Of a stretch of DNA of 32,027 bases, positions 3,540 to 24,568 are shown piece after piece. The stretch lies in assembly GCA_019244235.1 (NCBI GenBank), contig JAFASY010000146.1:1-32027 (forward strand). The letters run 5' to 3'. The position numbers were made by a program, and so were the translations under genes. The notes beneath the pieces are model-generated. The model was not told the origin of the DNA, made no database searches, and worked only from the letters and a program-made list of their open reading frames with translations. The stretch comes from Chroococcidiopsidaceae cyanobacterium CP_BM_ER_R8_30. Lineage in GTDB: Bacteria; Cyanobacteriota; Cyanobacteriia; Cyanobacteriales; Chroococcidiopsidaceae. Position 1 is the first letter of the stretch. Each line of letters starts with the position of its first letter.

Positions 3540-4709
3540 GTGATGACATTAACTTCTATCAATAGCGGTGATTTTCTTGGTCAGTTTACCGCTCTAAAGC
3601 AAGGTCAATTTAGCGGACAGGTGCTACTGAAAGGTCCATTAGATCAGACATGGATTTTCTACATGTTTCTCGGTCGGATTCTGTATGCTACTGGCGGTGT
3701 TCACCCAGTTAGGAGATGGCGAAGGAATTTACTAACTTATTGGCCTCAAATAGATATAGATAAGTTATGTCTTTCTACCAATCATTCTATTAATTCATTC
3801 AATATTTGTTGGGAATATCAGCTATTACACTTATGGATGGAACAGCAAAAACTTAGCAGAGAGCAAGCAGCGAAAGTAGTTGTGTCGATTGTCACTGAAG
3901 TGTTGTTTGATGTGACTCAAGCAATGCATGTGACCTATCAGTCTACACCAGAGAATCTATCACTGCCACAGCTCGTGTTTCTCGATTCTGAACAGTTGAT
4001 TACAGAAGTGAAGCGAGGCTGGGCTGCTTGGTGTGAAGCCAAAATTGCCGATCGCTCTCCCAATCGAGCCCCCATCATTCAGCAGCCGGAGCAACTCCAG
4101 AGCCGAACCTCACCTTCGCTTTTCCAAGTTTTAACAACTCTACTCGATGGACAGGGTACCTTGCGAGATTTAGCAGTAAAGATGAAGCGAGATGTGGTAT
4201 CTGTCACCCATTCGCTCTTGCCTTACATCCAAGCTGGATTAGTAGAGCTAACTGACATTCCTGATTTAGCAGCACCAGTTGCTCCCGTCTCACCAGGAAA
4301 GTCATCAATTTCTCCGGTGAATCCTCAAGGACCAATCATTGCTTGTGTAGATGACAGTCCTTTAGTTTGTCAAAGTATGGAAAGGATTCTGACAGATGCA
4401 GGCTATCAGTTTGTTGCAATTCAAGACTCGCTCCGGGCGATCGCCACTCTTTTGATCCGCAAGCCTGATTTGATCTTTCTAGATTTGGTCATGCCAAATA
4501 CCAACGGCTATGAGATTTGCACCCAGTTGCGTAAGGTTTCGGCTTTTCGTGACATCCCAATCATTATCCTAACAGGAAATGACGGCATCATCGATCGAGT
4601 TCGGGCAAAATTGGTTAGAGCTTCAGGTTTTTTGAGCAAACCAATTAATGCAGAAATAGTCTTAGAGACAGTACGTCAGTACTTAAACAATAGCTCTTTA
4701 GTAATGTAG
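3540..4709 (+). CDS. pixG: PATAN-domain response regulator, PixG/PatA-like
   Basis: This 389-residue regulator has an N-terminal PATAN (DUF4388-type) region (about residues 1-110; GQFSGQVLLKG, then FLGRILYATGG), a helical middle part, a proline-rich linker near residues 250-265 and a C-terminal receiver domain (about 270-385). The receiver has VDDS, the phosphoacceptor motif FLDLVMP, the threonine in ILTGN and the lysine in SKP. Such proteins open the pix and ptx phototaxis loci and act downstream of CheA on type IV pilus motility. GGAGGA at 3523-3528 fits either GTG 3540 or ATG 3543 as start. It is the first gene of a long run on the plus strand; the cheY follows after 76 bases. The assignment as a PixG-type regulator rests on domain order plus gene order. 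Confidence 0.87.
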   Translation: MMTLTSINSGDFLGQFTALKQGQFSGQVLLKGPLDQTWIFYMFLGRILYATGGVHPVRRWRRNLLTYWPQIDIDKLCLSTNHSINSFNICWEYQLLHLWMEQQKLSREQAAKVVVSIVTEVLFDVTQAMHVTYQSTPENLSLPQLVFLDSEQLITEVKRGWAAWCEAKIADRSPNRAPIIQQPEQLQSRTSPSLFQVLTTLLDGQGTLRDLAVKMKRDVVSVTHSLLPYIQAGLVELTDIPDLAAPVAPVSPGKSSISPVNPQGPIIACVDDSPLVCQSMERILTDAGYQFVAIQDSLRAIATLLIRKPDLIFLDLVMPNTNGYEICTQLRKVSAFRDIPIIILTGNDGIIDRVRAKLVRASGFLSKPINAEIVLETVRQYLNNSSLVM

Positions 4710-4785: not shown

Positions 4786-5151
4786 ATGAGTACGGCTTTA
4801 GTTGTTGACGACTCCCTTACAGAGAAAGAAGTTCTCAGTCACTGTCTACGGCGGGGTGGCTTAAATGTCGAGACTGCTGGTAGCGCTGATGAAGCTTTGG
4901 CAAAAATTTTGAGTCACAAACCAGATGTCATCATTTTAGATGTTGTACTGCCTGGTCGCAGTGGATTTGAACTCTGTCGTGACCTTAAAGCTGAAGCTGA
5001 GACGAAAAAGATTCCCGTCGTTATTTGTTCAACTAAGGGTACCGAGATCGATAAGTTTTGGGGTATGAAGCAGGGGGCAGATGCCTACTTAGCTAAACCA
5101 ATTGACCAAGAACAATTGCTACGAGTCGTCAAGCAATTGCTGCAAGATTAA
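4786..5151 (+). CDS. pixH: CheY-like response regulator, PixH type
   Basis: A single receiver domain of 121 residues. It has the acidic pair Asp8-Asp9, the phosphoacceptor Asp52 (ILDVVLP), a Ser82-Thr83 pair at the switch position (ICSTKG) and Lys104 (LAKP). The segment DKFWGMKQGADAYLAKPID is typical of PixH-type CheY proteins from cyanobacterial pilus-motility operons. It has no output domain, so it probably acts as a diffusible regulator or phosphate sink for the CheA encoded downstream. AGAGG lies about nine bases before the start. The cheW-like gene starts 40 bases after its stop. Confidence 0.92.
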   Translation: MSTALVVDDSLTEKEVLSHCLRRGGLNVETAGSADEALAKILSHKPDVIILDVVLPGRSGFELCRDLKAEAETKKIPVVICSTKGTEIDKFWGMKQGADAYLAKPIDQEQLLRVVKQLLQD

Positions 5152-5191
5152 GGCGGTCGCGCTATGCCAAAACAATACAGGAGATTGGCTG

Positions 5192-5767
5192 ATGAAATCT
5201 GATTTTTTGCCTGGTGGTATTCTCGTTCCATCAAATACAAACCCAACAGCAGAAGTTGGACAGTCCTCCGCCAACTTACCCTTTTTGCGGTTTCGACTTG
5301 TGCCTGATACTTCCGTCTTGTTGCCTGTGCAACAGATTACAGAAGTGATTACTATAGCAACTCACGAAATTGTGCCAATCCCTAACCTACCAGCCTGGGT
5401 GATGGGAGTTCACAACTGGCGGGGTGAGGTTTTGTGGATGGTAGATCTGGGACAGTTGATCGGACTCGATCCGCTGTACCAACATGCAACCAATCACTCA
5501 AGCTACACAGCCATCGCGATCTCTGAGACACAGCTCATGCCAAACAGACAGGCAGTAGCGTCGCAAACTGCCAATAGAAAACTGTTAGGGCTAGTCGTCA
5601 ACCAGGTGGAAGATATGGAATGGCTCAATCTAGATGCAATTCAATCACCACCACCTGCCTCTGTCACCCCTGAACTCGTGCCATTTTTGCGCGGTCTTTG
5701 GCTGAAATCAAATGGCGAAATTCTCACAGTTCTAGATAGCAGATCTATCCTCGCTGCTATGCCCTAG
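5192..5767 (+). CDS. pixI: CheW-like adaptor, PixI type
   Basis: This CheW-domain protein of 191 residues links chemoreceptors to the histidine kinase CheA. The domain spans about residues 25-185, with FLRFRLVPDTSVLLPV, IPNLPAWVMGVHNWRGEV, a VVNQVEDM segment and a C-terminal FLRGLWLKSNGEILTVLD. These match the five-stranded SH3-like folds of CheW, including the GVHNWRGE stretch that is most conserved. The frame is open further upstream, but AGGAGA at 5179-5184 sits eight bases before ATG 5192, and a start before that would overlap the upstream cheY, so 5192 is chosen. It is one of two CheW genes in the locus. The other (20575-21075) follows cheA. Confidence 0.9.
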   Translation: MKSDFLPGGILVPSNTNPTAEVGQSSANLPFLRFRLVPDTSVLLPVQQITEVITIATHEIVPIPNLPAWVMGVHNWRGEVLWMVDLGQLIGLDPLYQHATNHSSYTAIAISETQLMPNRQAVASQTANRKLLGLVVNQVEDMEWLNLDAIQSPPPASVTPELVPFLRGLWLKSNGEILTVLDSRSILAAMP

Positions 5768-5822: not shown

Positions 5823-8800
5823 ATGATTTCCTCTCCTGAACCTAATAAAGCCACGCATCAAGTGACACCTGATGAACAATTTTTTTCTCAAATAATTTCT
5901 GACCAGCAGCAGATACAGTCAATAGACAAAAAAGAACACCAAGAATCAGACATAGAGAACCTGTTTGTCCATGGGCAGATGCTTACAAATCGTCAAGCAC
6001 ACTCTCCTCGCTGGTGGCAAAGACTCAGCTTGAGAGTCAAGACTACAGCTTTGGCAGTTGCCCTGAGTACAATTCCAGTCTTAGCAATTGGTGCTACTAC
6101 TTATGTTTTGGCAAATAGAAAAATTACTCAAGACACATTCAATCAACAAACATCCCAAGCGCTTTACATAGCAAATACTCTCGACCGCTTCACTATTGAG
6201 CGCTATAGAGATATTCAAACCCTCTCTCAATTGAGGATTTTCAACGATCCTCGCGTGCGAGCAGCCACCTCGGTACAAGAGAAGGAAGCAGCACTAACTC
6301 AATTCATGAGTAATAAGGAGGGTTATTACACGATTGCTGTTGCTGATCTTTCCGGTCGCTTACTTGTAGGCGCTGGAACTGGGAAAATTCCTGCTAATTT
6401 TAGCAAGATTGACTATTTTAAAGCGGTTCTAAAAACCAATCGTCCTGTCATTACCCCTCCAAGGGAGTCAGTCATACCAAGACAAGGTTATTGCATCTTT
6501 GTTGCTGCACCTATCATTGATCCGGTAACAGGTAAAACAATTGGTGTTGTACGAACACAAACGCTGGTGCGATCTCTCAGTGGAACTTTTGAGTTAGAAG
6601 CAAAAGCTTTAGGGAGGGGAATTCAAGGATCTATCTCCTATGCAGATCTTGTGCTTAACCAAAATGGAAAAGTTGTCGTATCAACACCGACGAATTATAC
6701 GAATCTAGATATTCAGTCAATTTTCCCTCACGCTGCTCAATTGAAAGCAACAGACAAAGTTGGTAGTACAGTAGATTTCTCTCAGCTTGACCGCAAGGAT
6801 TATATAGTGTCCTACGCTCCCGCTGGTAGACTTCCAGGAGCAGCAGGGTTAAACTGGAGTGCTGTCGTTATCCAACCTACAGCAGTGGGATTTGCCGCCT
6901 CAAGACAGCTGCTATTAACTTTAGGGATTGGCACTGTGCTGGCAGCTTTGCTAGTAGGTGCGATCGCTGCCTACCTGGTCAACCGAGCCACTCGACCAAT
7001 TCTTGCTGCAACTGATGCTGTAGAAAAATTGGGGCAAGGGGAACTCTTCACCCGCATTGCCGTAACAGGAGAAGACGAACTTGCCACTCTGGGATTCAAC
7101 ATTAACCGGATGGCAGACCAAATTCAAACTCTACTTGAGAATCAAACATCTGAAGCTGAACGAGCCCGCTTATTTGCTGAAATTGCTACCTCCCGCACAA
7201 TTGAAGGTTTAGAGGCTGTTCTGGCGCGGTCGGTTAAAGGCATCCGGGAAGTACTTAACGCCGATCGCATTGTCGTCTATCGCTTCAACCCAGATTGGAC
7301 TGGATACATTGCTGCTGAATCTGTACTACCTGGTTGGCCTGTTGCCCTCAATGAGCAGATCGAAGATGCCTGCATTGGAGAGGAACTGCTTGAAGCTTAC
7401 AGAAATGGTCGGGTTGTGCCTACCAATGATGTCTTCGAGGCTGGTTTTCATCCAGATCATCTTAAGTTGATGGAACGTTTGCAGATTAAAGCCAATTTAG
7501 TCACAGCAATTGTGAGCGAAGGTCAGCTCTTCGGTTTACTCATTGCCCATCACTGCTTAGGACCATATTTTTGGCAGCAGCATGAAATCAATTTTTTGGC
7601 GGGAGCTGCTGGTCAGCTAGGATTGATTCTTGACCGCGTGATTCTCTTGGAACGAAAAAAAGTTGAGGCTGAGCGAGCAAGCTTGCTTAAGGACATTACC
7701 CTCCGCCTCACTCAATCTCTTGACTTACAAAATATCCTCAATACAGCTGTTGAAAGTATCCGACAAGGATTTGGCTTAGATCGAGTTGTGGTTTATGGTC
7801 TCGATCCAGTTACCTGGAAGGGAACTGTCATTGCTGAATCAGTTGCTTCAGGTTGGCCGCAGTCTTTGGGCGTTGAAATTGATGATGCCTGCTTGAGGCA
7901 AGGTCAGGTAGAACGATATCGCCAAGGTCAAGTTACCCGAATTAATGATGTTTACAAAGAACCACGGGTCAATGATTGTTACCTCAAGACCTTGTCTCAA
8001 TTTGCTGTGAAGGCCAACTTGGTAGCACCAATTGTGAGAGACAATCAGTTATTCGGCTTATTAATTGCTCACCAATGCGACAAACCACGAATGTGGCAGC
8101 AGGATGAGATTGATGTCTTCACTCAGTTAGCAACACAAATCGGAGTGACTTTAGACCGTGCCAGTCTCTTAGAAAAGTTAGAACAAGCACGGGCTTCAGC
8201 AGAGAGGAATTCGCTAGAGCAACGCCAACAAAAAGAAACTCTGCAGCAACGTGCTTTGGCATTACTAATGGAGGTCGATCCGGTGAGTCGCGGAGATTTG
8301 ACTATCCGTGCCAACGTGACTGAAGACGAAATCGGCACGGTGGCAGACTCATATAATGCCACCATTGGTAGCTTACGTAGAATTGTTACCCAAGTACAAA
8401 CCGCAGCCCAACAAGTGGCAGCAACGACCAATAGCAATGAAGCCTCTGTGCAGGTGCTATCTACTGAAGCCTCCCGACAAGCCGAAGAAATCAGCCTAGT
8501 GCTGGCACAAATTCAGCAAATGTCTGACTCGATTCACGCTGTTGCTGCTAATGCCAAGCAGGCTGAAGCTGTGGTGAGACAGGCAAATCAAACCGTAGAA
8601 GCAGGTGATGTCGCAATGAACCGGACAGTAGACGGGATTGTGGCAATTCAGGAGACAGTGGCAGAAACTGCAAAAAAAGTGAAGCGGTTGGGTGAATCTT
8701 CGCAAAAGATTTCTAAGGTGGTGAAACTGATTAATGCGTTTGCCGATCAAACTAACTTGCTGGCACTCAATGCCGCAATAGAAGCGGCCCGCGCTGGGGA

Positions 8801-9227
8801 ACAAGGTCGCGGTTTTGCAGTGATTGCTGATGAAGTAGGAACGCTCGCTCAACAGTCACAAGAAGCAACAGCAGAAATCGAAGCGCTGGTGGCAGAGATT
8901 CAGACAGAAACTCAGGAAGTGGTAGCAGCGATGGCAGCTGGAACCCAACAGGTTGTTACTGGCACTCAACTGGTAGATGAGACTCGCAGTAGTTTGAACA
9001 AAATTACCGCAGCTAGTGCCCAGATTAGTGCCTTGGTAGAAGCGATCGCTCAGACAGCTGTGGTTCAATCTCAAACTTCTGAGACTGTGACTCAAACTAT
9101 TACTGGTGTAGCAGCGATCGCTAACAAGAATTCAACCGAAGCCACTATGGTATCTGCCTCATTTCAGGAACTGCTTGCTGTAGCACAAGAGCTACAGGCT
9201 AGCGTTGGTCAATTCAAAGTGAGTTAA
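5823..9227 (+). CDS. Chemoreceptor 1 (PixJ-like; dCache-like, HAMP, two GAF, HAMP, MCP signalling domain)
   Basis: A 1134-residue methyl-accepting chemotaxis protein. A cytoplasmic N-terminal stretch is followed by a membrane helix (about 74-96), an extracytoplasmic dCache-like sensor (about 97-360), a second helix (about 362-387) and a HAMP domain. Two GAF domains (about 446-612 and 617-784), a second HAMP (about 809-856) and the MCP signalling hairpin (about 860-1133) complete it. GAF1 has Asp where the chromophore cysteine should be (FHPDHLKLM). GAF2 keeps Cys690 (DACL) and Cys719 (NDCYLKTL), but with Phe to Leu and His to Tyr changes against the DXCF pattern, so pigment binding is uncertain. 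The hairpin tip [20 protein letters not shown] is canonical. A C-rich repeat lies just before ATG and no good ribosome binding site is seen. The lipoprotein gene follows after 14 bases. Confidence 0.92.
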
Positions 9228-9241
9228 GAAAAATAATTCCC

Positions 9242-10267
9242 ATGAAAATCCGTAAACTATTGCCTTTATTTGCAATATTTTTAGCAAGTTTAGTTGTCAC
9301 AGTGAGTTGCGCCTCATCTCAACAATCTACCTCGCTTAATGCTTCCAGTGGTATACCAATTCGACTTGGTTTTAGCACCTGGCCTGGTTGGCTGCCTTTA
9401 CAGGTAGCTCAAGTAGAAAGTGTATTTGAAAAGAACAAAAGTAACATCGATCTAAGATGGTTTGATGGCTATTTAGATTCAATTAATGCACTAGCTTTTA
9501 ACAAGATAGATGCTAATAGTCAAACATTGAATGATACGATTAGTGCCGTTGCTAGTGGTTCAGATCAAGTTGTGATCTTGGTCAACGACAATTCAACTGG
9601 TAACGACAAAATCATTGTGAGGGAAGGAATTAATAGCATTGCTGATTTAAAAGGAAAGAAAGTTTCTGCCGAACCAGGAACAGTCGATCACTTTCTCCTA
9701 CTGCTAGGTCTAGAGAAAGCTGGCTTAACCCAGGCAGATATTCAGTTTCAACCTCTAGAAACAGGAAAAGCCGCAGCAGCGTTTTTGGCTGGACAGGTCG
9801 ATGCCGTAGGGGTTTTTGCTCCTTTTACAACTAAGGCTCTCCTGCGTCCTGGCAGTAAGGAGTTGTTTAGTTCCAGAGAATTTCCGGGCGCAATCTCCGA
9901 TCACATATCGGTCAGTCGTCAACTGATTGAAAAAAGACCTCAAGATGTACAAGCTCTAGTAAATAGCTGGTTTGACACCTTAGACTACATTCGCAATCAT
10001 CCAGAAAAGTCATGTGAAATTATGGCTGAAAGAGCTGGAGTTTCAGTTGCAGAATACAAAGATTATGATGCTGGAACTAAGATTTTTAGTCTGACAGAGA
10101 ACTTGAAAGCTTTTGAGCCTGGTAACGATATGTCTTCTTTACCTTATGCCGCTGAAAAACTCAGCAAATTCTTGGTCAAAAGTGGAATAAACCAAAAAGA
10201 ACCAGATATGAGTAGACTATTCGACGCTCGATTTCTGAAGGCTTACGCTGCCTCCCGTAATAGTTGA
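9242..10267 (+). CDS. Orphan substrate-binding lipoprotein, NMT1/THI5-SsuA-like
   Basis: This 341-residue protein looks like the solute-binding part of an ABC transporter. It starts with a signal peptide (KIRKLLPLFAIFLASLVVTV) and a lipobox ending at Cys23; the -3 residue is Thr, a little off consensus. The mature part matches periplasmic binding proteins of the NMT1/THI5 and nitrate/sulfonate/taurine group: IRLGFSTWPGWLPLQVA near the start, SIADLKGKKVSAEPGTVDHF in the hinge region, then FLAGQVDAVGVFAPFTTKAL. The ligand cannot be inferred. No permease or ATPase gene is next to it. It lies 14 bases after chemoreceptor 1 and 35 bases before chemoreceptor 2, on the same strand, so it is probably co-transcribed with them. 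A role as a ligand-delivering partner of one of the receptors is inference. Confidence 0.88.
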   Translation: MKIRKLLPLFAIFLASLVVTVSCASSQQSTSLNASSGIPIRLGFSTWPGWLPLQVAQVESVFEKNKSNIDLRWFDGYLDSINALAFNKIDANSQTLNDTISAVASGSDQVVILVNDNSTGNDKIIVREGINSIADLKGKKVSAEPGTVDHFLLLLGLEKAGLTQADIQFQPLETGKAAAAFLAGQVDAVGVFAPFTTKALLRPGSKELFSSREFPGAISDHISVSRQLIEKRPQDVQALVNSWFDTLDYIRNHPEKSCEIMAERAGVSVAEYKDYDAGTKIFSLTENLKAFEPGNDMSSLPYAAEKLSKFLVKSGINQKEPDMSRLFDARFLKAYAASRNS

Positions 10268-13731: not shown

Positions 13732-16700
13732 ATGCTAAATTATCGCCTTGAGCGGAATGAATCTGAGCCTGATATTCAACTAGAAGAAAATAGCAAGCCG
13801 CAGAGAACAGCTTTACCACCAGATCTAAAACCCAAACCTAATTCTCGTCGTGCTTGGCAGCACCTGCGTCAAACATGGGAAAATTTAAGCTTTCGCACTA
13901 AGCTTACGATTCTTTTATTCAGTAGTACAGCTCTGCCTGTAATTGCCGTAACTCATGGACTGATCGCTTTTGACAAGGCACAGACGATACGCGACTTACA
14001 GCAATCTCTGCAACAGCAAGGTAAAGCCTTTGATGAAGAGTATGTTCTCGGGACACAGGTAGATAGTCAAGTCAAAGCGGAACAGTTAGCTAAGCTCATA
14101 CAGGCAACTGAGGTAAATTTGAGTAACCCTAAAGAGGTGTTAGCGCATCGCGACTTGCTACAAGATTTTCTCAAAATTGAGAACGGTCCAGATCCTGAAG
14201 TCAACAAAAATTTTCAAATTTTCACTGATAGTCAAGGTAGGATAGTTGCTCAAGATATTAAAGTTCTGGATGCAGATACATCTAGTAACCCACCTCTACC
14301 AGATTTAACTAAAGCCTTAACAGAACAAAGATACCGCTCAGTGTCTTTGCCATTAGGAACTTATCTAGGAGATATTCCCATCGTCAAAGATGCCCTGAGA
14401 ACTGGACATCCATTAGATGGTATAGAGTTACTGAAAGGAGAATTACTGCAACGTCTAGGGCTACAGAAACAAGCCGATATCGGTTTACAAACACAAGCAA
14501 CTCACAATCTTTCTGAATCTCAGCGACCCTCCCCACAGGGTACCTACGACATTGATGGAGGAAAAGCCGGATTGCTTGGTATGGCTGTTTATCCTATCAA
14601 AGTCAAGAATAAGTTAGTGGGTACTGTCATTGTTGGGTCACTCTTAAACCGCAATTATGGGTTAGTAGATAAATTTTCCCAAAAGTACAAGGTGCCTTTG
14701 GTGAGTGTATTTGCACAGGACTGGCGGGTCAGCACAAATGTTCCCTACAGCGATGGTCAAACTCGAGCAATTGGGACACGGGCTTCCCAAGAGGTAGCAG
14801 CGAGTGTCCTCAATCACGGGCAAGACTTTTCTGGTTCGGCAAATATTATAGGGAAGCCAGCTTTGACATTCTACACACCTCTATATGACCATCAACAGGA
14901 ACTCAATCCTCAAGCCAAGCCTATAGGAATGGCCTTTGTTGGTGTGTCTTCAGATCAAGTAGAAAGTCGTTTGAGACAGCAACAACTTATTGGTTATGGT
15001 CTTGGGGGAAGTCTATCGCTATTGTTTGGTCTAATTGCTATTCCAACCGCTGCCTCTTTCTCCCGTCCATTACGCCGTCTCACTAGTTATGCCAAGCAAG
15101 TAGGGGCTAGAGAGCAGGTAGCACAACTAGAATTAACCGGGCGTCAAGACGAAATTGGCATTTTGACTCAAGAATTGAGTCAGTTGGCTGATAGCATCTT
15201 CATGAACGAAGAGTCATTGAAAGAAGAGAATCGACGTAAAGAACGCTACTCTTACCAATCACAACTATATGCAGAAATTGCTGGCCACCGGGTTGGTCAA
15301 TTTCAAGATGCTGAGCCGATTTTTCATCAGGCGGCTACAGGGGCAAGGGAGATCCTGAAAGCAGATCGGGTCGTTGTTTATCTCTTCCAACCCGATGGTC
15401 ATAGGTACATTGTTGCTGAGTCTGTTTTGCCTGACTGGCCTCGCGCTGCTGAAGACAAAAATGAGGCACCCCCTCTGGCAGCTCAGCTAATGGAGGCATA
15501 CAGAAATGGGCTTGTCTTTCCGACTAACAATGTATTTGAGGCAGGCTTTGATCCAGAACACTTGAAATTAATGGAGCTACTGCAAGTTAAGGCAAGTTTA
15601 GTGACCCCAATTCAGAAGAACGAGCAACTCTTCGGCTTATTGGTGGCACACCATTGCTCGGCTCCTCATAATTGGCAGCAATATGAAATCAGTTTCTTCT
15701 CTCAATTGGCTAACCAGATTGGGTTGGTGTTAGACCGGGTGAGCTTAATCGAGCAGAAGTCTGCTGAAGCCGAGCGCTTGCGGATGTTGAGGGAGATTAC
15801 TGTTAAAATTGGTCGCTCAGTTGAATTTGAAGCTGTCCTAAATACGGCGGTAGAAGAAACTCGTCTAGCTCTCAATGCCGATCGAGTCGTAGTCTACGGT
15901 CTACTCGACAAATGGCTCAAGACGGTACTCGCGGAATCAGTCACCCCCGGTTGGCCTCGTGCCTTAGGCTCTCAAATCAATGACCCCTGCTTCCACCAAC
16001 AGTATGCTGAACGCTATCGCGCAGGCCGAGTCAAGGCAACTGATAATATCTACAATGCCGGACTCACAGATTGCCACATTAAGCAACTAGAAGCATTTGC
16101 TGTGAAGGCAAACTTGGTGGCCCCAATTATGCGAGGTGGCGAACTTCTGGGTCTATTGATCGCCCACCAATGTTCTGGTCCGCGCACTTGGCAGCAGAGT
16201 GAAATTGACTTATTCACGCAGATAGCAACTCAAATGGGCTATGCTCTTGACCTGGCAACGTTGGTAGAACAGCAAAAGGTGGCGAAAGAACAACTGCAAC
16301 AACGAGCGCTGGAGCTGCTGATGGAAGTGGAACCAGTTAGTCAGGGTGACTTAACTATCCGCGCTAGTGTCACCGATGACGAAATTGGCACAGTGGCAGA
16401 TTCTTATAACGCCACAGTAGGGAGTCTGCGCAAAATCGTGACTCAAGTGCAAGCGGTAGCTAGAGCAGTGGCAACAACGACCAGTAATAATGAAGTCTCT
16501 GTTGCTGAGCTATCAGCAGAAGCCTTACGGCAAGCCGAAGAAATTGCTGCTGCCTTGGGACGGATTCAAGAAGTGTCTAACTCGATTCAAGCGGTTGCTG
16601 CAAGCGCTGAGCAAGCTGAAGACATGGTGCAACAGGCTACCCGAACAGTAGAACAGGGTGATATGGCAATGAACCGGACGGTTGAGGGAATTTTAGCTAT

Positions 16701-17277
16701 CCGCGAAACAGTGGCAGAAACTTCTAAAAAGGTACAGCGACTGGGTGAATCTTCGCAGAAGATTTCTAAGGTTGTAAACCTAATTGGCAGGTTTGCCGCT
16801 CAAACTAACTTGCTAGCACTGAAAGCTTCCATTGAGGCAGCCCGCGCTGGAGATGAAGGACGAGGATTTGCCGTTCTGGCAGAAGAAGTACGGACGCTGG
16901 CAGGTCAATCGGCAGCAGCTACGACTGAGATTGAAAGTTTGGTGGCAACAATTCAGACTGAAACTCAAGAGGTGGTGGCAGCGATGGAAGCTGGGACAGA
17001 GCAGGTCGTTATTGGTACCAAACTGGTGGATGAAACTCGCAATAGCCTCAACCACATTACTGCTGCCAGTACGCAGATTGGTACTTTGGTGGAAGTGATC
17101 GCCCAAGCAGCTGTGTCCCAGTCTCAAGCATCTGTTGCTGTAACCCAAGCCATTACTAATGTGGCGGAGATTGCCAACAAAAATTCCACCGAAGCGACTT
17201 CGGTATCAGCCTCATTTAAGGAGCTGCTTGCCGTAGCTCAACAGCTAGAAGCTAGCGTCGGTCAATTCAAAGTTTAA
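13732..17277 (+). CDS. Chemoreceptor 3 with DXCF cyanobacteriochrome GAF domain (PixJ-like)
   Basis: A 1181-residue chemoreceptor with a third, distinct extracytoplasmic domain (about 80-415) between membrane helices at about 57-79 and 418-440. HAMP, GAF1 (about 507-667), GAF2 (about 677-842), a second HAMP and the MCP signalling hairpin follow. GAF2 carries DPCF (Cys753) and DCH (Cys781), again 28 apart, the DXCF cyanobacteriochrome signature. GAF1 has lost both cysteines (EAPPL, then FDPEHLKLM). The hairpin tip reads [17 protein letters not shown], with Lys for the usual Asn and Asp-Glu for Glu-Gln. From GAF2 through the second HAMP it is almost identical at DNA level to chemoreceptor 2 (compare 12361-12890 with 15970-16495). 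AGGA lies upstream of ATG. The cheA gene follows after 37 bases. Confidence 0.93.
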
Positions 17278-17314: not shown

Positions 17315-20300
17315 ATGGGGATTGACTCAGATATCCGCGACCAGGCCTACCAGTTCTTTATTCAAGAGGCTCCGGAGCTATTACAGTTGATTGAAACGGA
17401 GTTGCTGACGCTCAGAACCGAGCGCAGTACTGCCAAAGTCCACAACATGATGCGGGCTGCTCACTCGATTAAGGGGGGAGCTGCAAGTGTGGGGTTGGAA
17501 ACGATTAAAACCTTAGCTCACAGCCTCGAAGACATCTTTAAAAGTCTCCACAGTGAGGAGCTGACGATCGATGCTGAAGTGGAAGGTTTATTACTCTCTG
17601 CATATGACTGTCTCCGCTTGCCCTTGATCGAGCAAGTTACCACAGGTCAATTTAACTCTCAGCAGGCAATGGCAATGGCAGAGCCTGTGTTCGCTCAAGT
17701 TGAAGCCTGCTTGGGAGATTTTCTTAGAGGCTCTGCCAATCTCCCTAGCTCTGTTGATTTAGGAGTAGATATTGCCTTATCTATCTTTCAGGTAGATGTC
17801 GATCAAGGACTAGAGCGCTTGGCAACGGTGATTTCTCATCCACAGAGTGAAGAAGTTGCGGGAGAACTGCGTGCTCTGGCGGAGGTCTTTAGCGGCATTG
17901 CCGAGTTATTGGAATTGCCTGGTTTTGGAGAAATTGCCCAGGCAACTTTGGCAGCGCTTGAGGCTCATCCAGAGCAAACCTTACAGATTGCTCAAATCGC
18001 TTTGGCTGATTTTCGTGCGGCTCAGGAGGCAGTCATCAGGGGCGATCGCAAAACTGGCGGGGCTCCTTCCCCAGCTTTAGTAGAACTTGCTGCTGCTGCT
18101 GCTCCTCCTCCTGTCCTGGAACAAAATTATGGAGTTAAAAATCGCAGAGACGCTGAGGACGCAATAGATGACATTCCTGCCATTGCTTCACTAGAAGAAT
18201 TTGCTAACTTTTTCCTACCCTCTCAGTCAACAGCTCCAGAAGAAATATTCTCGCTTCCAGTGGCAGAAGCCGAGCTAGAAGATTCAACGCTCACAAATTT
18301 CAGTGCAGATGAGGAATTGGCAGCTCCTTCACTGGAAGACATTTTCGGTAATCTTGACGAAGTCGAGCCGCGCTCCGCTGCTTTGGCAAAGCGGCGGAGC
18401 GAGTTCGATGACCTGACTGAATCTACAGCTCTAGAGTCGCAGAGAGCAACCGATCCAGCAGCGTTGGTCGTCTATACCCCTGCTGCTCCTGTGTCTCAGC
18501 TATCAGCTGATACCATGCAACAAGAAGCAGCAAGTGGACGCACAACTGCAACTCCTACTCCTCAACTGTCTGTCCGAGTTGACTTAGAGCGGCTAGAACG
18601 GATCAATAATTTGGTGGGTGAGCTTTCCATTAACCGCAACAGTCTTTCTTTGCAAAACGAACAACTTCAAAACACCATTAAAGAGCTACTACAGCGTTTT
18701 GCCAAATTTCAGGAATTGGGTCGGAGTCTGCGAACACTCTCAGACCAAATGCTGGTAGCGCCAGTAGAGGGCAGGGGGAGCAGGGGGAGCAGGGGAAGCA
18801 GAGGAAGGTATGAATCTCCTGCTCAAGTATACGACTACGATGTTGCACATGTAGAGCAAAGAGACGACAAGGGAAATCCTCTTACTCCCCATGCCTCCCC
18901 TGCCCCCCCTGCTCTCTTCTCTTCCCCTGCCCTCTTCGACTCCCTAGAAATGGACAGTTATGGAGAACTCAATTCCTTACTGCAAGAGACGACTGAAGAG
19001 ATGGTGCGATTAGAAGAGACGGTTGGCGATGTTGTCCTCCTTGCAGGGCAGTCAAGTCAGACGCTCGAACTACAGCGTCAAATGCTTGGGAACTTGCGGG
19101 ATGAGGTCATGTGGGCTAGGATGCTGCCTCTCGGTGAAGTGCTTAACCGCTTTCCTCGGATCTTGCGAGACTTGTCTACTGCTTATGGCAAGCCTGTGGA
19201 ACTCAAGCTCAACGGTACAGGAGTTTTAGTTGACAAGGCAGCGATTGAGAAACTCTACGATCCTCTGCTGCACTTACTACGCAATGCCTTTGACCACGGG
19301 ATTGAAGCGCCAGAAGTGCGAATGGCACAAAGGAAACGGGCACAAGGTCAGATCGAAATTCGTGCCTATCACCAGGGAAGTCAAACTATCATTGAAGTCC
19401 GAGATGATGGTCAAGGGATTAACTTAGATCGTATTCGCAGTAAGGTTGCAGCTCTGGGTATATGGTCGCCTGAGAAAATAGCAGCGGCTTCCCCGTCTCG
19501 TTTGATTGAATTGCTATTCGAACCAGGGTTTTCTACTGCTTCTCAGGTTAGTCAACTCTCTGGTCGTGGCGTTGGATTAGATGTTGTGCGTGCCCAAGTG
19601 CGATCGCTGAAGGGTTCAGTCACTGTCACTTCTGAACCAGGGCAAGGGACAACCTTTACCTTGCGAATTCCGCTAACTCTGACAATTGCTAAATTACTCG
19701 TTTGTTTTGTCGGCAATTCTGCTTTTGCATTGCCTTCTGATAGCATCGCAGAAATTTTGATCCCTCAACCCGATCAGGTAAAGTTATCTAGGGGGCAGAG
19801 ATTCCTGCAATGGCGGGAGCAAATTATCTTAATCCATCGCCTATCCGAACTCCTAGAATACTCCCGTCCTGTGCCTGCGACTATTCCCAATCGGGCTTTG
19901 GCGTCATTTCCTACCCCAGAGGAATGGGCTTTACCAATGCTGTTGCTGGAGCAAGATGAGCAAATTCTAGCAATAGAAGTTGACCGTCTGGTGACAGAAC
20001 AAGAACTTGTGATTAAACCTTTTGGAGCAGCAATTACGCCTCCTAGCTATATCTACGGCTGTACTATCTTAGGAGATGGTAGCCTGATTCCGGTGATTGA
20101 CGGTGTCGCTCTGCTTGACATGTTCCTTAGTCAAACTCAGACAGCAATGTATGATGCAACCAAGTCGGAGTTGACGGCTACTGGGACAACAAGAGAAGTC
20201 ACATCCACGCTGTTGGTTGTAGATGACTCTATCACTGTACGGCAAACCTTAGTTCTGACGCTACAAAAAGTCGGTTATCGGGTTTTGCAAGCACGGGATG

Positions 20301-20569
20301 GACGGGAAGCCATTGAGCAGTTGCAGCAGAATTCCTCAGTAGCGCTAGTGATTTGTGATATCGAAATGCCTAACATGAATGGCTTTGAGTTTCTCACTTA
20401 TCGTCGTCAAGATCCAGTCATATCAGAAATTCCTGTCGTCATGCTGACTTCCCGCAGCGGTGATAAACATCGACAGTTAGCGATGTTCTCTGGGGCTAAT
20501 GGGTATTTTACTAAGCCCTACATAGAGCAGGAGTTTCTTACCGCAATCAAACAGTTAGTTAAAAAATAA
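17315..20569 (+). CDS. pixL: Hybrid CheA histidine kinase, PixL type
   Basis: The central kinase of the pathway, 1084 residues. An HPt domain (1-110) has the phosphorylated His50 in AAHSIKGGAA. A helical region to about 260 and an acidic, proline-rich linker follow. The dimerisation domain (about 417-590) has LERLERINNLVGELSINRN. The ATPase domain has HLLRNAFDHGIE, DDGQGIN and SGRGVGLDVV. A CheW-like domain and a C-terminal receiver with Asp1015 (ICDIEMPN), TSRS and TKP end the protein. No P2-type docking domain was recognised. Two repeat insertions are translated: a palindrome at 18371-18401 in the linker and a G/C-rich inverted repeat at 18766-18943 at the turn of the dimerisation hairpin. 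ATG 17315 is used; the overlapping ATG at 17311 soon meets a stop. The ribosome binding site is weak. Confidence 0.94.
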   Translation: MGIDSDIRDQAYQFFIQEAPELLQLIETELLTLRTERSTAKVHNMMRAAHSIKGGAASVGLETIKTLAHSLEDIFKSLHSEELTIDAEVEGLLLSAYDCLRLPLIEQVTTGQFNSQQAMAMAEPVFAQVEACLGDFLRGSANLPSSVDLGVDIALSIFQVDVDQGLERLATVISHPQSEEVAGELRALAEVFSGIAELLELPGFGEIAQATLAALEAHPEQTLQIAQIALADFRAAQEAVIRGDRKTGGAPSPALVELAAAAAPPPVLEQNYGVKNRRDAEDAIDDIPAIASLEEFANFFLPSQSTAPEEIFSLPVAEAELEDSTLTNFSADEELAAPSLEDIFGNLDEVEPRSAALAKRRSEFDDLTESTALESQRATDPAALVVYTPAAPVSQLSADTMQQEAASGRTTATPTPQLSVRVDLERLERINNLVGELSINRNSLSLQNEQLQNTIKELLQRFAKFQELGRSLRTLSDQMLVAPVEGRGSRGSRGSRGRYESPAQVYDYDVAHVEQRDDKGNPLTPHASPAPPALFSSPALFDSLEMDSYGELNSLLQETTEEMVRLEETVGDVVLLAGQSSQTLELQRQMLGNLRDEVMWARMLPLGEVLNRFPRILRDLSTAYGKPVELKLNGTGVLVDKAAIEKLYDPLLHLLRNAFDHGIEAPEVRMAQRKRAQGQIEIRAYHQGSQTIIEVRDDGQGINLDRIRSKVAALGIWSPEKIAAASPSRLIELLFEPGFSTASQVSQLSGRGVGLDVVRAQVRSLKGSVTVTSEPGQGTTFTLRIPLTLTIAKLLVCFVGNSAFALPSDSIAEILIPQPDQVKLSRGQRFLQWREQIILIHRLSELLEYSRPVPATIPNRALASFPTPEEWALPMLLLEQDEQILAIEVDRLVTEQELVIKPFGAAITPPSYIYGCTILGDGSLIPVIDGVALLDMFLSQTQTAMYDATKSELTATGTTREVTSTLLVVDDSITVRQTLVLTLQKVGYRVLQARDGREAIEQLQQNSSVALVICDIEMPNMNGFEFLTYRRQDPVISEIPVVMLTSRSGDKHRQLAMFSGANGYFTKPYIEQEFLTAIKQLVKK
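18371..18401 (+). repeat. Palindromic element translated within cheA
   Basis: CGCTCCGCTGCTTT pairs with AAAGCGGCGGAGCG around the loop GGC, a 14-pair stem with one G-T pair. It is in frame and encodes RSAALAKRRSE in the linker between the HPt and dimerisation domains. The right arm resembles the repeat near 1329 upstream of hflX. It is probably a copy of a small mobile palindrome. Confidence 0.7.
18766..18943 (+). repeat. Inverted G-rich/C-rich repeat insertion in cheA
   Basis: The left arm (about 18766-18806) repeats GCAGGGGGA. The right arm (about 18878-18943) is rich in CCCCTGCC and CTCTTC motifs and is roughly the reverse complement of the left (GAGGGCAGGGG matches CCCCTGCCCTC). The arms could fold into a long hairpin. 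The whole insert is in frame and adds about 60 residues (485-544), rich in Arg-Gly-Ser at one end and Pro-Ala at the other, between the two helices of the CheA dimerisation domain. Confidence 0.7.
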
Positions 20570-20574
20570 CCAAA

Positions 20575-21075
20575 ATGGAAAACTCCCTAGTTCCCTTTAA
20601 ATCTTACAGCCTCAGGTACTCGAATAATGCCAAAGCTGTAGCGTCCCTCAAAGCAATTGTCTTTAACATCGGCAACCTTATTTTGGCGCTGCGGATCGAG
20701 AATGTCTACAAAGTGCTAAGTCAGACTCCTGTTTACGGCAGTGGGCTTAACCGTGTTGGAATTGCTCACGTAGGCGATCGCGAGGTAACTATCATAGATT
20801 TAAATCAGCAGTTATTTAATAGCAATACTGGTGCAGTCGCTCAAGCCAATTACTTAGTTGTTGCCCAAAATACGGCAGGTGAACTCTTTGGTATTCCAGT
20901 TGCCGTTGTTCCAGCGTTGAAGCAGTTAGCTTTATCTAACATCCGAGTTTTGCCAGAGTCTTACCGTGATTCCGACCTGTTAGGGATTGCTAGCCATGTC
21001 TGTCAAATTTCAGAAAAGGAGACAACCCTAACAGTCTTTTTATTAGATGTAGATAGAATTCCAGAATCAAGATAG
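20575..21075 (+). CDS. CheW-like adaptor downstream of cheA
   Basis: A 166-residue CheW-domain protein encoded five bases after cheA, the last gene of the operon. It starts with IVFNIGNLILALRIENVYKV, the typical N-terminal strand and helix of CheW, and has VGIAHVGDREVTIIDL in the place of the GVHNWRGE segment and FLLDVDRI at the end. It is more divergent than the pixI-like protein, so it may favour different receptors or modulate array assembly. The 3' 231 bases are repeated, with about 90% identity by hand alignment, at 25463-25693, beyond the defence-gene island. This intact copy keeps the reading frame. No good Shine-Dalgarno sequence is seen, which fits translational coupling to cheA. Confidence 0.85.
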   Translation: MENSLVPFKSYSLRYSNNAKAVASLKAIVFNIGNLILALRIENVYKVLSQTPVYGSGLNRVGIAHVGDREVTIIDLNQQLFNSNTGAVAQANYLVVAQNTAGELFGIPVAVVPALKQLALSNIRVLPESYRDSDLLGIASHVCQISEKETTLTVFLLDVDRIPESR

Positions 21076-21265: not shown

Positions 21266-22324
21266 ATGGAGTACGACAGGATCAAATATGAGTTAGATAA
21301 CTCTCCGAGTTTCAAACTTTTGCGGAGTCGAAACGCTCCTTTGGTTTTGAGCTTTCTACATCGGCAGTTTAAGCAGCAAAAGTGCATCTCAATTTCAAAG
21401 TCAGAGCTAGAAACAAGGTTAGGGGATTATCTAGAGTTTCTTCAGGAAACGCTTGCGGATGCTCATCCACGCTCACCAAATGAGTATCTCAACGAGTGGT
21501 GCGAGGATCGGTTCCTCCGCAAAACCTTTGAAATTGGCAGTGACGATCCTGTATTTACCCTGACTCCTGCCACAGAAAAGGTGATTGGGTGGCTAGAGGA
21601 TTTAGAACAGCGTGAATTTATTGGTACAGAATCTCGCTTTTTGCAAATTTTCTCGTTGCTAAAAGATATTCGAGATAACAGCACAACAGATGTAGAGACA
21701 CGAATTGTTCAGTTAGAGCAGGATCGCGATCGCATCCAGCAAGAGATCGATAAGATTCGACAGACTGGCTTGGTCGAGCGCTACAACCGCACTCAAATCC
21801 AGGAGTGGTTCTTACTAGCAAATCAACTAGCTCGCCAGTTGATTGCAGATTTTGCCGAAGTCGAGCAAAACTTCCGGGCGTTAACTCGTACGGTCCAAGC
21901 AGCCCAAATTCAAGCCAATACTCGTAAAGGCTCCGTAGTTGGTCATGTTTTGGATGCTGATGAAGAATTAAAAGCATCCCCTCAAGGGCGCAGCTTTTGT
22001 GCCTTCTGGACTTTTTTGATGTCGGAGAGCAAGCGGCAAGAACTAAGATCCCTGCTCCAAGCCGTTTACAACTTAGAAGAGTTACGTTCCCTAAGCCAAG
22101 AGTCTGTACTACTACGCCGAATCGAGCGTAGCTTGATCGATGCTGGGGAACATATTGTGCAATCAAATTATCGGTTAGCAGAAAAACTACGTCAGATGCT
22201 GGATGAACGCAACCTGATGGAAAATCGCTCGATTGCCGAACTAATTACTGATGATGAACTACCCCGACCTGCTTACGCTCTTGGTCGGGGTTTCTACATC
22301 CCCGACAGCAAGTTGAGATTTTGA
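21266..22324 (+). pseudogene. jetA: Truncated Wadjet jetA (DUF3375, MksF-like)
   Basis: The frame encodes 352 residues, of which about 332 are native. The start YDRIKYELDNSPSFKLLRS, followed by ARNAPL-type RNAPLVLSFLHRQF and later LTPATEKVIGWLEDLEQREF, GTESRFLQIFSLL, VLDADEELKASPQGRSF and RIERSLIDAGEHIVQSNYRL, is the pattern of DUF3375. This is the JetA (MksF) subunit of Wadjet, an SMC-like complex that recognises and removes plasmid DNA. Family members run to roughly 480-500 residues. Here the gene stops being native after IAELITDD, where the end of an IS605-type element supplies the last 20 codons. jetB and jetC, which should follow, are absent. ATG 21266 is a natural start. It cannot form a working system here. 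The family call is from memory of the family and gains support from the jetD remnant on the other side of the element. Confidence 0.8.
22262..22306 (-). ncRNA. Right-end hairpin region, candidate omega RNA 3' end
   Basis: CCCCGACC, GGTCGGGG and a second CCCCGAC (22300-22306) follow one another, so the middle segment can pair with either flank, giving two exclusive hairpins. In IS605-type elements the guide (omega) RNA of TnpB is transcribed across the end of tnpB and the right end of the element. The location and orientation fit, but no RNA boundary can be read from sequence. The stop codon of tnpB (complement of 22259-22261) lies beyond this hairpin. Confidence 0.35.
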
Positions 22325-23059
22325 ACGTTTCTTCTGTCCCAGTTGCTGCATAGATCCGCAATGCTTACGCATTTTAGTCTTAACAGTAGAGCTAGAAACA
22401 TCGACGTTTGCGAGGACAGTTCCTGACCCCGGTAGAATTCCTCTAGCCCACAAAACCATCACCTCAGCAGCAGCTAAATCGCGGTCTTGAACGCAGCCAC
22501 ATTGTTTACAGAAATGAACTCGCTGACCACGTTCTTTTTCCTTTTGATCTCCGCATTTTGGACAAGTCTGAGATGGCTTAACCTTTTTTGTAGGAACTTC
22601 TACAAAAATGCCGCCACCCTCTTCTAACTTGTACTTAATTGCGCTGGTTAACATTCCCCAACCGACATCTAAGATAGAGCGATTGAGTCCTATTTTCTGG
22701 CGCTTTCTTTTGCTACCTGGTTTCGGTTTTGCAGTCATTTTCTTAGTTTCTAGTTTCTCCGAAGCTATCAGGCTACTACCGCCGATCAATTGTATAGCTT
22801 GGTGATGAACCCAGTTCTGCCTCTGGTTTGCAGCCTGACGTTGCAGTCTGCTCACCTTCTTTGAAGCCTTAAGCCATCTTCTAGAAGCCTTGATTTTCTT
22901 CTTCCGATTTGGCGCACGTTTCCGACGCTTATCCTTGGAAGCTTTTTTGATTTTGGGCAGCATTTGCTTGTACCAACGGGGATTTTCTATGAAGTATCCA
23001 TTCTCCCCATCGGAAATAGCAGCAGCCGTGTTTGTCCCCAAATCAATACCAACAGAAGA

Positions 23060-23147
23060 GGTCAGTTGCGTGCTGAGGTTCCCTCCGTTGAGGAGGGAGC
23101 GCGTTGCGGGGGTTCCCCCCGTTGTAGCGACTCCCGTCAAACTGACC
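23060..23147 (-). repeat. Nested palindromic repeat translated within tnpB
   Basis: GGTCAGTT (23060-23067) and AACTGACC (23140-23147) form an outer stem. Inside are CCCTCC/GGAGGG (about 23081-23097) and GGGGG/CCCCC (about 23108-23120) hairpins. On the minus strand it encodes the glycine- and threonine-rich stretch SLTGVATTGGTPATRSLLNG, out of place before the RuvC-I motif. It resembles palindromic repeats dispersed in filamentous cyanobacterial genomes. Confidence 0.65.
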
Positions 23148-23581
23148 GTCCCAGTACCTAGTTCCCTGGATACTGGTTCGCAATTTATCGTAATTGAGGC
23201 ATACCACTTGCCATGCCGATGAACAATCGTACATGTTGTTGGAGTCCCCCAGACTTTGGCTTTCCCCCTCATTTGGATCTGCCCTAAATTAGACAATTCC
23301 AAATAGCCATTATCACCAATCGTATGAGCTTTCGCTCCCTGCCCTATCAGGATATGTCCAACCACTGTAATGACGAATTGATTTGAATTTTGGGTAGCCT
23401 CCTATTCCCTGAAAGAATCTAGAGTAAGCCATGTCTACGCGCTTTAATGTTGCTTGCAGAGCATGGGAACCCAGCGCTTTGTAGTCAGTCCACACCTTTT
23501 TAAACTCTGGCAGACAATTCTGCTGCTCGAAGTAATCAACAGAGCGTCCGAACCTCTCGTACTGAGTTCTGCGATTACTGA

Positions 23582-23607
23582 TAGCAGCATTGTATAGCAG
23601 CATTGTA
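23582..23607 (-). repeat. 13-base tandem duplication that frameshifts tnpB
   Basis: TAGCAGCATTGTA occurs twice in direct succession (23582-23594 and 23595-23607). Removing one copy restores the frame: on the minus strand ...CYLYNAA joins ISNRRTQY without a stop. The duplication is therefore the likely inactivating lesion, probably by replication slippage. Confidence 0.85.
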
Positions 23608-23696
23608 GAGATAACAGTGCAAACGTCTCCACCCGTAGAGTTGTTGCTCTTGGGTTGCCGTGGGGTAGAGTCGAAAGGTGGCGCGTCGGGTTATCA

Positions 23697-23726
23697 TGAC
23701 ACTAGAATAACATGTTTTTAGTGTCA
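23697..23726. promoter_or_regulatory. Inverted repeat between tnpB and the ribbon-helix-helix gene, possible operator
   Basis: TGACACTA (23697-23704) and TAGTGTCA (23719-23726) are perfect inverted repeats separated by 14 bases. They fill the short space between the divergent starts of tnpB (23697) and the 46-residue DNA-binding-type protein (23732). Ribbon-helix-helix proteins usually bind such symmetric sites next to their own genes. Binding is inferred. Confidence 0.5.
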
Positions 23727-23731
23727 AAGAG

Positions 23732-23872
23732 ATGAAGCGCTTAACTTTAAGACTGTCGGATACGGAACATGATAAGCTCCTCAAATACTGCCAAGAGACT
23801 GAGCAATCGCTCAATGATGTGATTAGACAAATAATTAGAGAGTGGGAGCCGTCAAACCCTGTCCACCGCTAA
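23732..23872 (+). CDS. Small ribbon-helix-helix (CopG/Arc-like) protein of the IS605 element
   Basis: A 46-residue open frame. It begins MKRLTLRLSDTEHDKLLKYC and continues with TEQSLNDVIRQIIREWEP. The first strand with alternating Arg-Leu, followed by two amphipathic helices with SLNDVIRQIIRE, is the pattern of ribbon-helix-helix DNA-binding proteins. Small genes of this kind often sit divergently upstream of tnpB in cyanobacterial IS605-type elements, as here. The 34-base gap between the two starts contains a perfect inverted repeat, a candidate operator. It may repress tnpB and itself. AAAGAG lies just before ATG. The frame is intact although its neighbour tnpB is broken. The hairpin near the element end begins just after the stop codon. 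Confidence 0.7.
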   Translation: MKRLTLRLSDTEHDKLLKYCQETEQSLNDVIRQIIREWEPSNPVHR

Positions 23873-23908
23873 CCCCACCCTACTCCGCTACGCTCCGTTG
23901 AGGGTGAG

Positions 23909-24568
23909 GAACATAAAGCTATTATTCGCGATCTCTTAGAAGCTATATTACCTGCTGAAGCAATTCAGCCAGTAGAGTTTGCAAAGGATCATATATTTGA
24001 AAAGCAATTTTCCTTACGATATAGTGAACCTTTAGTTAGATTAAGAGTTTTGGATAATGCCTTGAGGGTCAGATATTGTTTTCCAGTTTCTGATTTAAGT
24101 ACTCCCATATCCGAATTCAGAAAACTTAATTTAGTGAAGCATCACTTTATCATTACTGAAAATCTCATGAGTTTTCTCACTTTACCTTCTCTATCAGATA
24201 GCTTTGCTCTATTTGGTAAAGGGTATGCTCTACAAGTTCTGAAGTCTGTAAGTTGGCTTACCTACTGTCCGCTTTTCTACTGGGGCGATCTAGATGTTGA
24301 TGGTTTCAAGATTCTCTCACAGCTCAGATCCTATTTCCCTCATACGATTTCGGTGATGATGGATGAGGAAACTTTTAGAAACTTTGAGGAATTTGCAGTG
24401 CCCGTTGCGGAGTCAAATATAGAATATTTACCTTATCTCACAGCAGAAGAGTATAGTCTATTTACATATCTATCTCAGCAAAAGAAACGCTTGGAACAAG
24501 AACATATCAGCCAGGATTTCGCTAATCGATATTTACAAAAAGTTTTACAGCGAGATGCTCAATGCTGA
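23909..24568 (+). pseudogene. jetD: Truncated Wadjet jetD (DUF2220 toprim part)
   Basis: About 220 codons remain, starting EHKAIIRDLLEAILPAEAIQ directly at the IS605 end. They continue through RYSEPLVRLRVLDNALR to the C-terminus. The remnant contains the toprim-like catalytic core: the glutamate in IITENLMSFL and the two aspartates in YWGDLDVDGF, followed by PYLTAEEYSLFTYL. JetD is the topoisomerase VI A-like nuclease of Wadjet and is normally about 400 residues, with an N-terminal DUF3322 part that is missing here. The gene has no native start; the first available start, TTG 24050, would make 172 residues with the catalytic motifs but no N-terminal arm. The rest of the system (end of jetA, all of jetB and jetC, start of jetD) is gone and the IS605 element stands in its place. 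Confidence 0.82.

Follow-up and report, generated by a model that had tools for sequence, protein, structure and literature searches.

The window analysed here, a 32,027-nucleotide stretch of contig JAFASY010000146.1 from the cyanobacterium Chroococcidiopsidaceae CP_BM_ER_R8_30, contains a complete Pix/Tax1-type set of genes (PatA, CheY, CheW, PixJ-like MCP and CheA) in one putative operon, in which a gene for a substrate-binding protein (SBP) lies among three receptor (MCP) genes. The genes of this operon are all on the + strand, in the order PatA, CheY, CheW, MCP1, SBP, MCP2, MCP3, CheA and CheW-like:

3540..4709, + strand, PatA/PixG-type response regulator (DUF4388 and receiver; Pfam)
4786..5151, + strand, CheY/PixH-type response regulator (Pfam)
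5102..5767, + strand, CheW/PixI-type coupling protein (coordinates from the first start codon)
5823..9227, + strand, MCP1: dCache_1 sensor, HAMP, two GAF domains (the second TePixJ-like) and MCP signalling domain
9242..10267, + strand, SBP: ATG start, 341 codons
10303..13668, + strand, MCP2: dCache_3-like sensor, HAMP, two GAF domains (the second TePixJ-like) and MCP signalling domain
13732..17277, + strand, MCP3: sCache_3_3 sensor, HAMP, two GAF domains and MCP signalling domain
17315..20569, + strand, CheA/PixL-type hybrid kinase (Hpt, HATPase, CheW and receiver)
20575..21075, + strand, second CheW-like protein, 5 nt after CheA

The listed CheW reading frame overlaps that of CheY, so its true start probably lies further in. 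A large extracytoplasmic ligand domain was found in all three receptors (dCache_1, dCache_3 and sCache_3_3), the dCache_3 match of MCP2 being weaker (29.7 bits against a cut-off of 25.7). To our knowledge, the cues read by the Cache domains of cyanobacterial phototaxis receptors are still an open question. The best PDB sequence match for the second GAF domains of MCP1 and MCP2 is 3vv4, which we take to be TePixJ; in the sequence alignment, the cysteines of both domains align with those of 3vv4, and in the second GAF of MCP2 both cysteines are present where DPCF and TECH align. These two domains thus appear PixJ-like and are predicted to be of the bilin type, and the label ‘photoreceptor-type’, given to all three receptors in an earlier sequence-only reading, applies to MCP1 and MCP2. 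The PatA- and CheY-type regulators, CheW, PixJ-like MCP and CheA are of the same kinds as in the Synechocystis Pix/Tax1 operon (pixG, H, I, J and L), as set out in passages of PMC5812497; the operon in the window differs in having three Cache-sensor receptors with an SBP among them. Over ~150 codons that start inside the second GAF and run on into the linker behind it, the DNA of MCP2 and MCP3 is 94–99% identical, whereas their sensor parts are only about 15–33% identical at the protein level; this points to gene conversion or a partial duplication.

The SBP reading frame, its ATG and its length of 341 amino acids were confirmed, as was its position between receptor genes, 14 nt from the MCP1 stop (9227) and 35 nt from the MCP2 ATG (10303). 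Its earlier description as NMT1/THI5-like is right in that the protein matches the Pfam models NMT1_2 (9.2e-15) and NMT1 (6.1e-13), but it is too general: membership of the NCBIfam family SsuA_fam fits more closely (4.5e-63; 213.2 bits against a curated cut-off of 163.5). Judged by eye, the N-terminus carries an apparent signal sequence and a lipobox cysteine (Cys23), which is Cys in 111 of the 112 rows of the family alignment and a gap in the remaining row. An AlphaFold model (mean pLDDT 86.8) has SsuA and TauA as its best PDB folds, and the closest PDB sequence relative is 2x26, an aliphatic-sulphonate-binding protein. The gene product is a predicted lipoprotein-like, exported binding protein with an SBP fold. 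Binding of a THI5-type thiamine precursor was dropped as a candidate function, because the best family models are for SsuA-type and ‘putative urea’ proteins and a guanidine riboswitch leads the paralogue described below.

As the sequence-only reading had stated, no transporter genes accompany the SBP: no ABC permease or ATPase was detected by Pfam in the nine other open reading frames of the window that were scanned, and BLAST with the permease and ATPase of the paralogous importer (contig C107, below) found no homologue among the window’s reading frames. With neither subunit beside it, the protein is therefore not filed here as part of an importer. The window yielded no Rfam match at the gathering score, and hence no riboswitch at that score. 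Between 8900 and 10600 there is no terminator-like site, and the three promoter-like sites compare with 3.4 in shuffled sequence; spacing, shared strand and this terminator-free stretch point to probable co-transcription of the SBP with the receptor genes.

The genome that contains the window (5.54 Mb, 97% complete) encodes a close relative of the SBP: its nearest relative there, 68% identical, lies on contig C107, is followed directly by permease and ATPase genes (L089 9246-12326), and the operon has a Guanidine-I riboswitch in front of it (66.2 bits, above the cut-off of 63). The possibility raised earlier, a permease/ATPase pair with the window SBP as its only binding protein, does not describe this transporter, which has its own. 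A transporter elsewhere in the genome that lacks an SBP was also considered and dropped, the other loci read among 36 permease matches holding only distant permease/ATPase relatives (27–47%), in several cases close to an SBP gene. Contig C238 (16515-16620) has a Guanidine-I match below the threshold (41 bits), near another SBP–permease–ATPase locus.

Relatives of the SBP in other genomes are overwhelmingly importer genes. Among the best 80 of 281 GTDB loci, a selection from which near kin of the window copy may be left out, the SBP gene is followed in 77 by a same-strand permease homologue no more than 325 nt away; two of the other three lie at a contig end (L042 and L084, 227 and 173 nt from the SBP) and one has an ATPase (L036). 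An MCP adjoins the SBP in none of these best 80 of 281, the single MCP-like match (L024) lying 7.8 kb away. Neighbours were also read for 22 family-level loci, 22 new order-level loci and ten chosen stretches. Nineteen of the family-level loci (L100–L121) adjoin a permease or ATPase gene, and the other three (in G011, G012 and G013) have neither permease/ATPase nor MCP within about 9–10 kb on each side. At order level, an SBP match is present in 165 of 388 genomes, and every one of the 22 new loci has a permease or ATPase homologue. With a riboswitch-led importer paralogue in the same genome and relatives in importer operons, the window SBP is therefore best read as an old, intact and relocated duplicate that has no transporter, derived from the binding protein of a probable guanidine importer.

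The case for guanidine as ligand comes from these relatives. Guanidine is known as a riboswitch ligand, and its biology is still being worked out. Of 17 other loci scanned, nine have a Guanidine-I riboswitch ahead of the SBP gene and on its strand, at distances of 94 to 3023 nt, and L072 has one on the opposite strand only; in a second scanned set the count is 6 of 20 loci, these being the six second copies of G011–G016. No riboswitch reached the gathering score in 7 of the 17 and 14 of the 20, the upstream stretches being short in many; the 4-kb loci of the second set hold only about 1.5 kb upstream, so that a riboswitch lying beyond a guanidinase gene would escape detection. In L026, L048 and L051, guanidinase-, hypA- and hypB-like genes lie between riboswitch and SBP, the guanidinase-like reading of L048 being split over two frames; a family search classed the guanidinase-like and hypB genes of L026 as agmatinase-family and HypB, and the remaining gene is, from its position, presumably hypA. 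This layout fits the Synechocystis guanidinase–importer set (guanidinase Sll1077, hypA, hypB, sll1080, sll1081 and sll1082), as presented in parts of PMC8390497, where sll1080 is classed as SsuA_fam; guanidine import by an ABC transporter in Synechocystis is likewise described in sections of PMC12186494. The window SBP belongs by description to the same class as Sll1080, which is encoded with Sll1081 and Sll1082 (a comparison by class, not by sequence; excerpts of PMC8390497), and shares the conserved core. It differs in lying in a phototaxis operon without transporter genes and without a riboswitch at the gathering score, whereas its own C107 paralogue has riboswitch, permease and ATPase. Riboswitch-led relatives, guanidinase-type neighbours and the Synechocystis importer together make guanidine, or a close analogue, our best guess for the predicted ligand. 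A nutritional use of guanidine is unsupported, since the 97%-complete genome has no guanidinase orthologue (the one match is 28% identical to an agmatinase) and no urea/guanidine carboxylase over the cut-off; C107 thus presents a riboswitch-led, probable guanidine importer in a genome in which neither enzyme was recognised.

Of 95 four-fold sites, 45 are the same in the window copy and the C107 copy, whose proteins are 68% identical; so low a four-fold agreement with so many residues shared indicates an old split with constraint at the protein level. In a 112-row alignment, in which positions were taken as near-invariant where at least 97% conserved in the other rows, the window SBP keeps 94 of 101 such positions and changes seven, the second most of all rows (median 1); the corresponding figures are 12 of 99 for L148, 6 of 100 for L151 and 3 of 99 for C107. 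Five of the seven changes (W53L, V69I, A142S, E145P and L222I) are unique to the window copy, L112 also has V112I, and Q88K recurs in C107 and L151; W53 is kept in the 111 other rows, and position 145, P in the window copy, is E in 108 of 112. The ligand could therefore have shifted, and an accessory input protein for the receptors that binds another guanidino compound, an amine or a sulfonate, with guanidine not sensed, would also accord with the aliphatic-sulphonate-binding protein 2x26 as best PDB sequence relative and with a genome in which no gene of guanidine catabolism was recognised. Against such a change of ligand stand the motifs that the protein has kept (WPGW, NDNSTGND, GTVDHFLLL, PLETG and APFTT), and we regard it as distinctly unlikely.

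A quick tree unites the window copy with the C107 copy, L026 and L063 in a 55-row set (SH-aLRT 99); of these, C107, L026 and L063 carry riboswitches, while for several other members the stretch scanned gave no match at the gathering score, a point against guanidine as ligand. The two copies from the same genome were left unpaired in this tree; a tree constrained to pair them has a likelihood 14.8 higher (p-AU 0.805). Origin of the window SBP in another lineage was dropped as a candidate, the AU test (p 0.805) permitting, not showing, a clade of the two copies, and their shared Q-to-K change occurring also in L151. Recent foreign insertion was likewise dropped: the GC3 of the window SBP (0.310) is close to that of the C107 SBP (0.317), so low GC3 is not a mark of the window copy alone.

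What occupies the position between receptor genes elsewhere was surveyed in 78 chemotaxis loci from 64 genomes (the window’s own included), hand-chosen from matches, not random. These were searched by BLAST with the two SBPs of the window’s genome (E 1e-5), and longer reading frames in gaps were also inspected; these queries could overlook an SBP from an entirely different family. Tandem MCP genes occur in 42 of the 78 loci (42 other genomes). An SBP-like reading frame was found by BLAST in none of the 78, and hence in none of the 42 tandem-MCP operons, so that the search for such a binding protein between MCP genes of other cyanobacteria, proposed in the sequence-only reading, gave none either here or among the best 80 of 281 SBP loci. 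The position is filled in another way in nine of the 42 operons (G141, G178, G265, G300, G321, G324, G333, G344 and G356), in which a gene for a CxxCH lipoprotein-like protein lies between MCP genes. The loci with CxxCH lipoprotein genes are:

L255, L261, L264, L271, L272, L273, L275, L276 and L279, and also L253, L274 and L295

In G306 and G347, the same gene adjoins MCP2 at a contig end, and in G234 a CxxCH lipoprotein gene lies between CheY and CheW. The three proteins scanned, those of L264 and L279 among them, are Tll0287-like (PF11845). This family comprises c-haem Cache domains, with NO-sensor properties when fused and probably redox-related when alone, according to sections of PMC12889525 (a preprint). 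The Tll0287-like (DUF3365) proteins occupy the same slot and are lipoprotein-like by eye; the window SBP is of an unrelated family, a two-lobed SBP as against a haem Cache. The slot between receptors may thus be one in which accessory proteins that provide periplasmic input are encoded. Among the literature matches listed there is no report of CxxCH lipoprotein genes between tandem PixJ-type MCPs.

Related operons without the SBP bear on whether the gene has a role in sensing at all. All three receptor types recur in G015 and G016, where the sensor parts give the order 1-3-2 and the receptor genes follow one another with no other gene inserted. Related loci without the gene, as foreseen in the sequence-only reading, thus exist in a loose sense: the types are the same, but the sensor parts are only 34–57% identical to those of the window’s receptors. 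Three tandem MCPs without an SBP also occur in G011 and G013 (sensor types not matched to those of the window). MCP1- and MCP3-type genes, by best full-length match, are directly adjacent in six family operons (G001, G002, G003, G005, G008 and G010), so that SBP and MCP2 are what the operon in the window has beyond them, which favours MCP2 as the partner. MCP2-type sensors are also found in separate operons of G002–G005 without an SBP; an SBP is thus not a requirement for such receptors. An arrangement present in one genome, and same-type receptors that do without the SBP, would suit a duplicated gene that landed in the operon and is merely expressed with it; the old divergence, intact frame, protein-level constraint and tight spacing to the MCP genes argue against such a hitchhiker, which we consider very improbable.

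The explanation that we prefer, at about even confidence, is that the SBP is a retained duplicate of a probable guanidine-importer SBP and supplies accessory input to one of the PixJ-type receptors, with MCP2 as the likeliest. The duplication would be old, and the copy would have entered a PixJ-type phototaxis operon and persisted there with no transporter subunits; as a lipoprotein on the outer face, it would bind guanidine or a close analogue and, once loaded, dock on the extracytoplasmic Cache domain of one of the adjacent receptors, again most probably MCP2. This receptor would combine the SBP signal with the light input of its bilin-type GAF and relay the result via CheW and CheA to the PatA and CheY motility regulators. 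We go no higher because we infer docking, ligand and behaviour, as well as partner and co-transcription, and because the arrangement occurs in one genome. Mechanistic precedent is given by PstS, which signals to the chemoreceptor CtpL, and by the receptor dependence of the maltose-, ribose- and dipeptide-binding proteins of E. coli (both in parts of PMC4926252); the proposed logic is the same, with a loaded SBP docking on a periplasmic domain. PstS, however, is part of its transporter in that account, whereas the window SBP is a copy distinct from that of the importer, with its gene among those of photoreceptor-type MCPs, and its docking is conjectural. In the genomes studied in PMC9602780, 13 of 22 SBP families were found to interact with signalling receptors.

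The same precedent also serves a different interpretation, namely that the window protein is a second SBP for the C107 importer, acting in trans, its place in the operon giving motility-linked expression only. An importer of the same family is present in the genome, most near-invariant positions are kept, and a double role of one SBP is known, as for PstS (PMC4926252). However, the C107 importer is already served by an SBP of its own, W53 is missing from the window copy alone, which also has P at 145 (E in 108 of 112 rows), and the slot in common with the haem lipoproteins would be left unexplained; supply of the importer in trans therefore seems to us unlikely. Input to a receptor thus stays the favoured interpretation, and the earlier proposal that the SBP joins chemical input to a light-sensing array is still the best reading, the same slot holding an accessory lipoprotein in nine operons; what it had not included is that the protein is a paralogue of an importer SBP.

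A more general version, which we put forward tentatively and with some doubt, is that the position between PixJ-type receptors is a socket for outer-face lipoproteins, haem-binding (redox or NO) in some lineages and guanidine-binding here, with one receptor integrating light and a chemical cue in what would be guanidine-sensing taxis. SBP-to-chemoreceptor signalling is already known elsewhere, and its pairing with a pix-type operon is seen in one genome only. Neither an SBP in a pix-type operon nor guanidine taxis is reported among the literature matches listed, mostly open-access papers; the arrangement, put forward in the sequence-only reading as a candidate for an undescribed one, was thus not found in the other genomes or the literature searched, but its conservation is unsupported, the one genome in which it occurs being the only example among those examined. 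With an SBP of predicted ligand co-encoded with the receptors, one Cache input becomes directly testable; if the proposal is true, guanidine gains a possible behavioural role. That haem lipoproteins are encoded at this position in other operons suggests that the pattern is wider.

A further SBP relative without transporter genes (57–58% identity) was seen in G185 (L208 2027-5961), ~100 nt downstream, on the same strand, of genes for a 490-amino-acid Hpt protein, which matches the N-terminal part of CheA, and a PatA-type regulator. It also deviates strongly at near-invariant positions, and the genome has another SBP copy with permease and ATPase (L207). This orphan may be an independent recruitment, or a product of assembly or decay.

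Downstream of the operon, the window holds Wadjet-like remnants (21266-24568). A DUF3375 reading frame, presumably of the JetA type, ends there at profile position 322 of 474; an IS605 TnpB-like reading frame on the opposite strand overlaps its end, and a JetD C-terminal reading frame is also present. The stretch is possibly a defence locus disrupted by a transposon.
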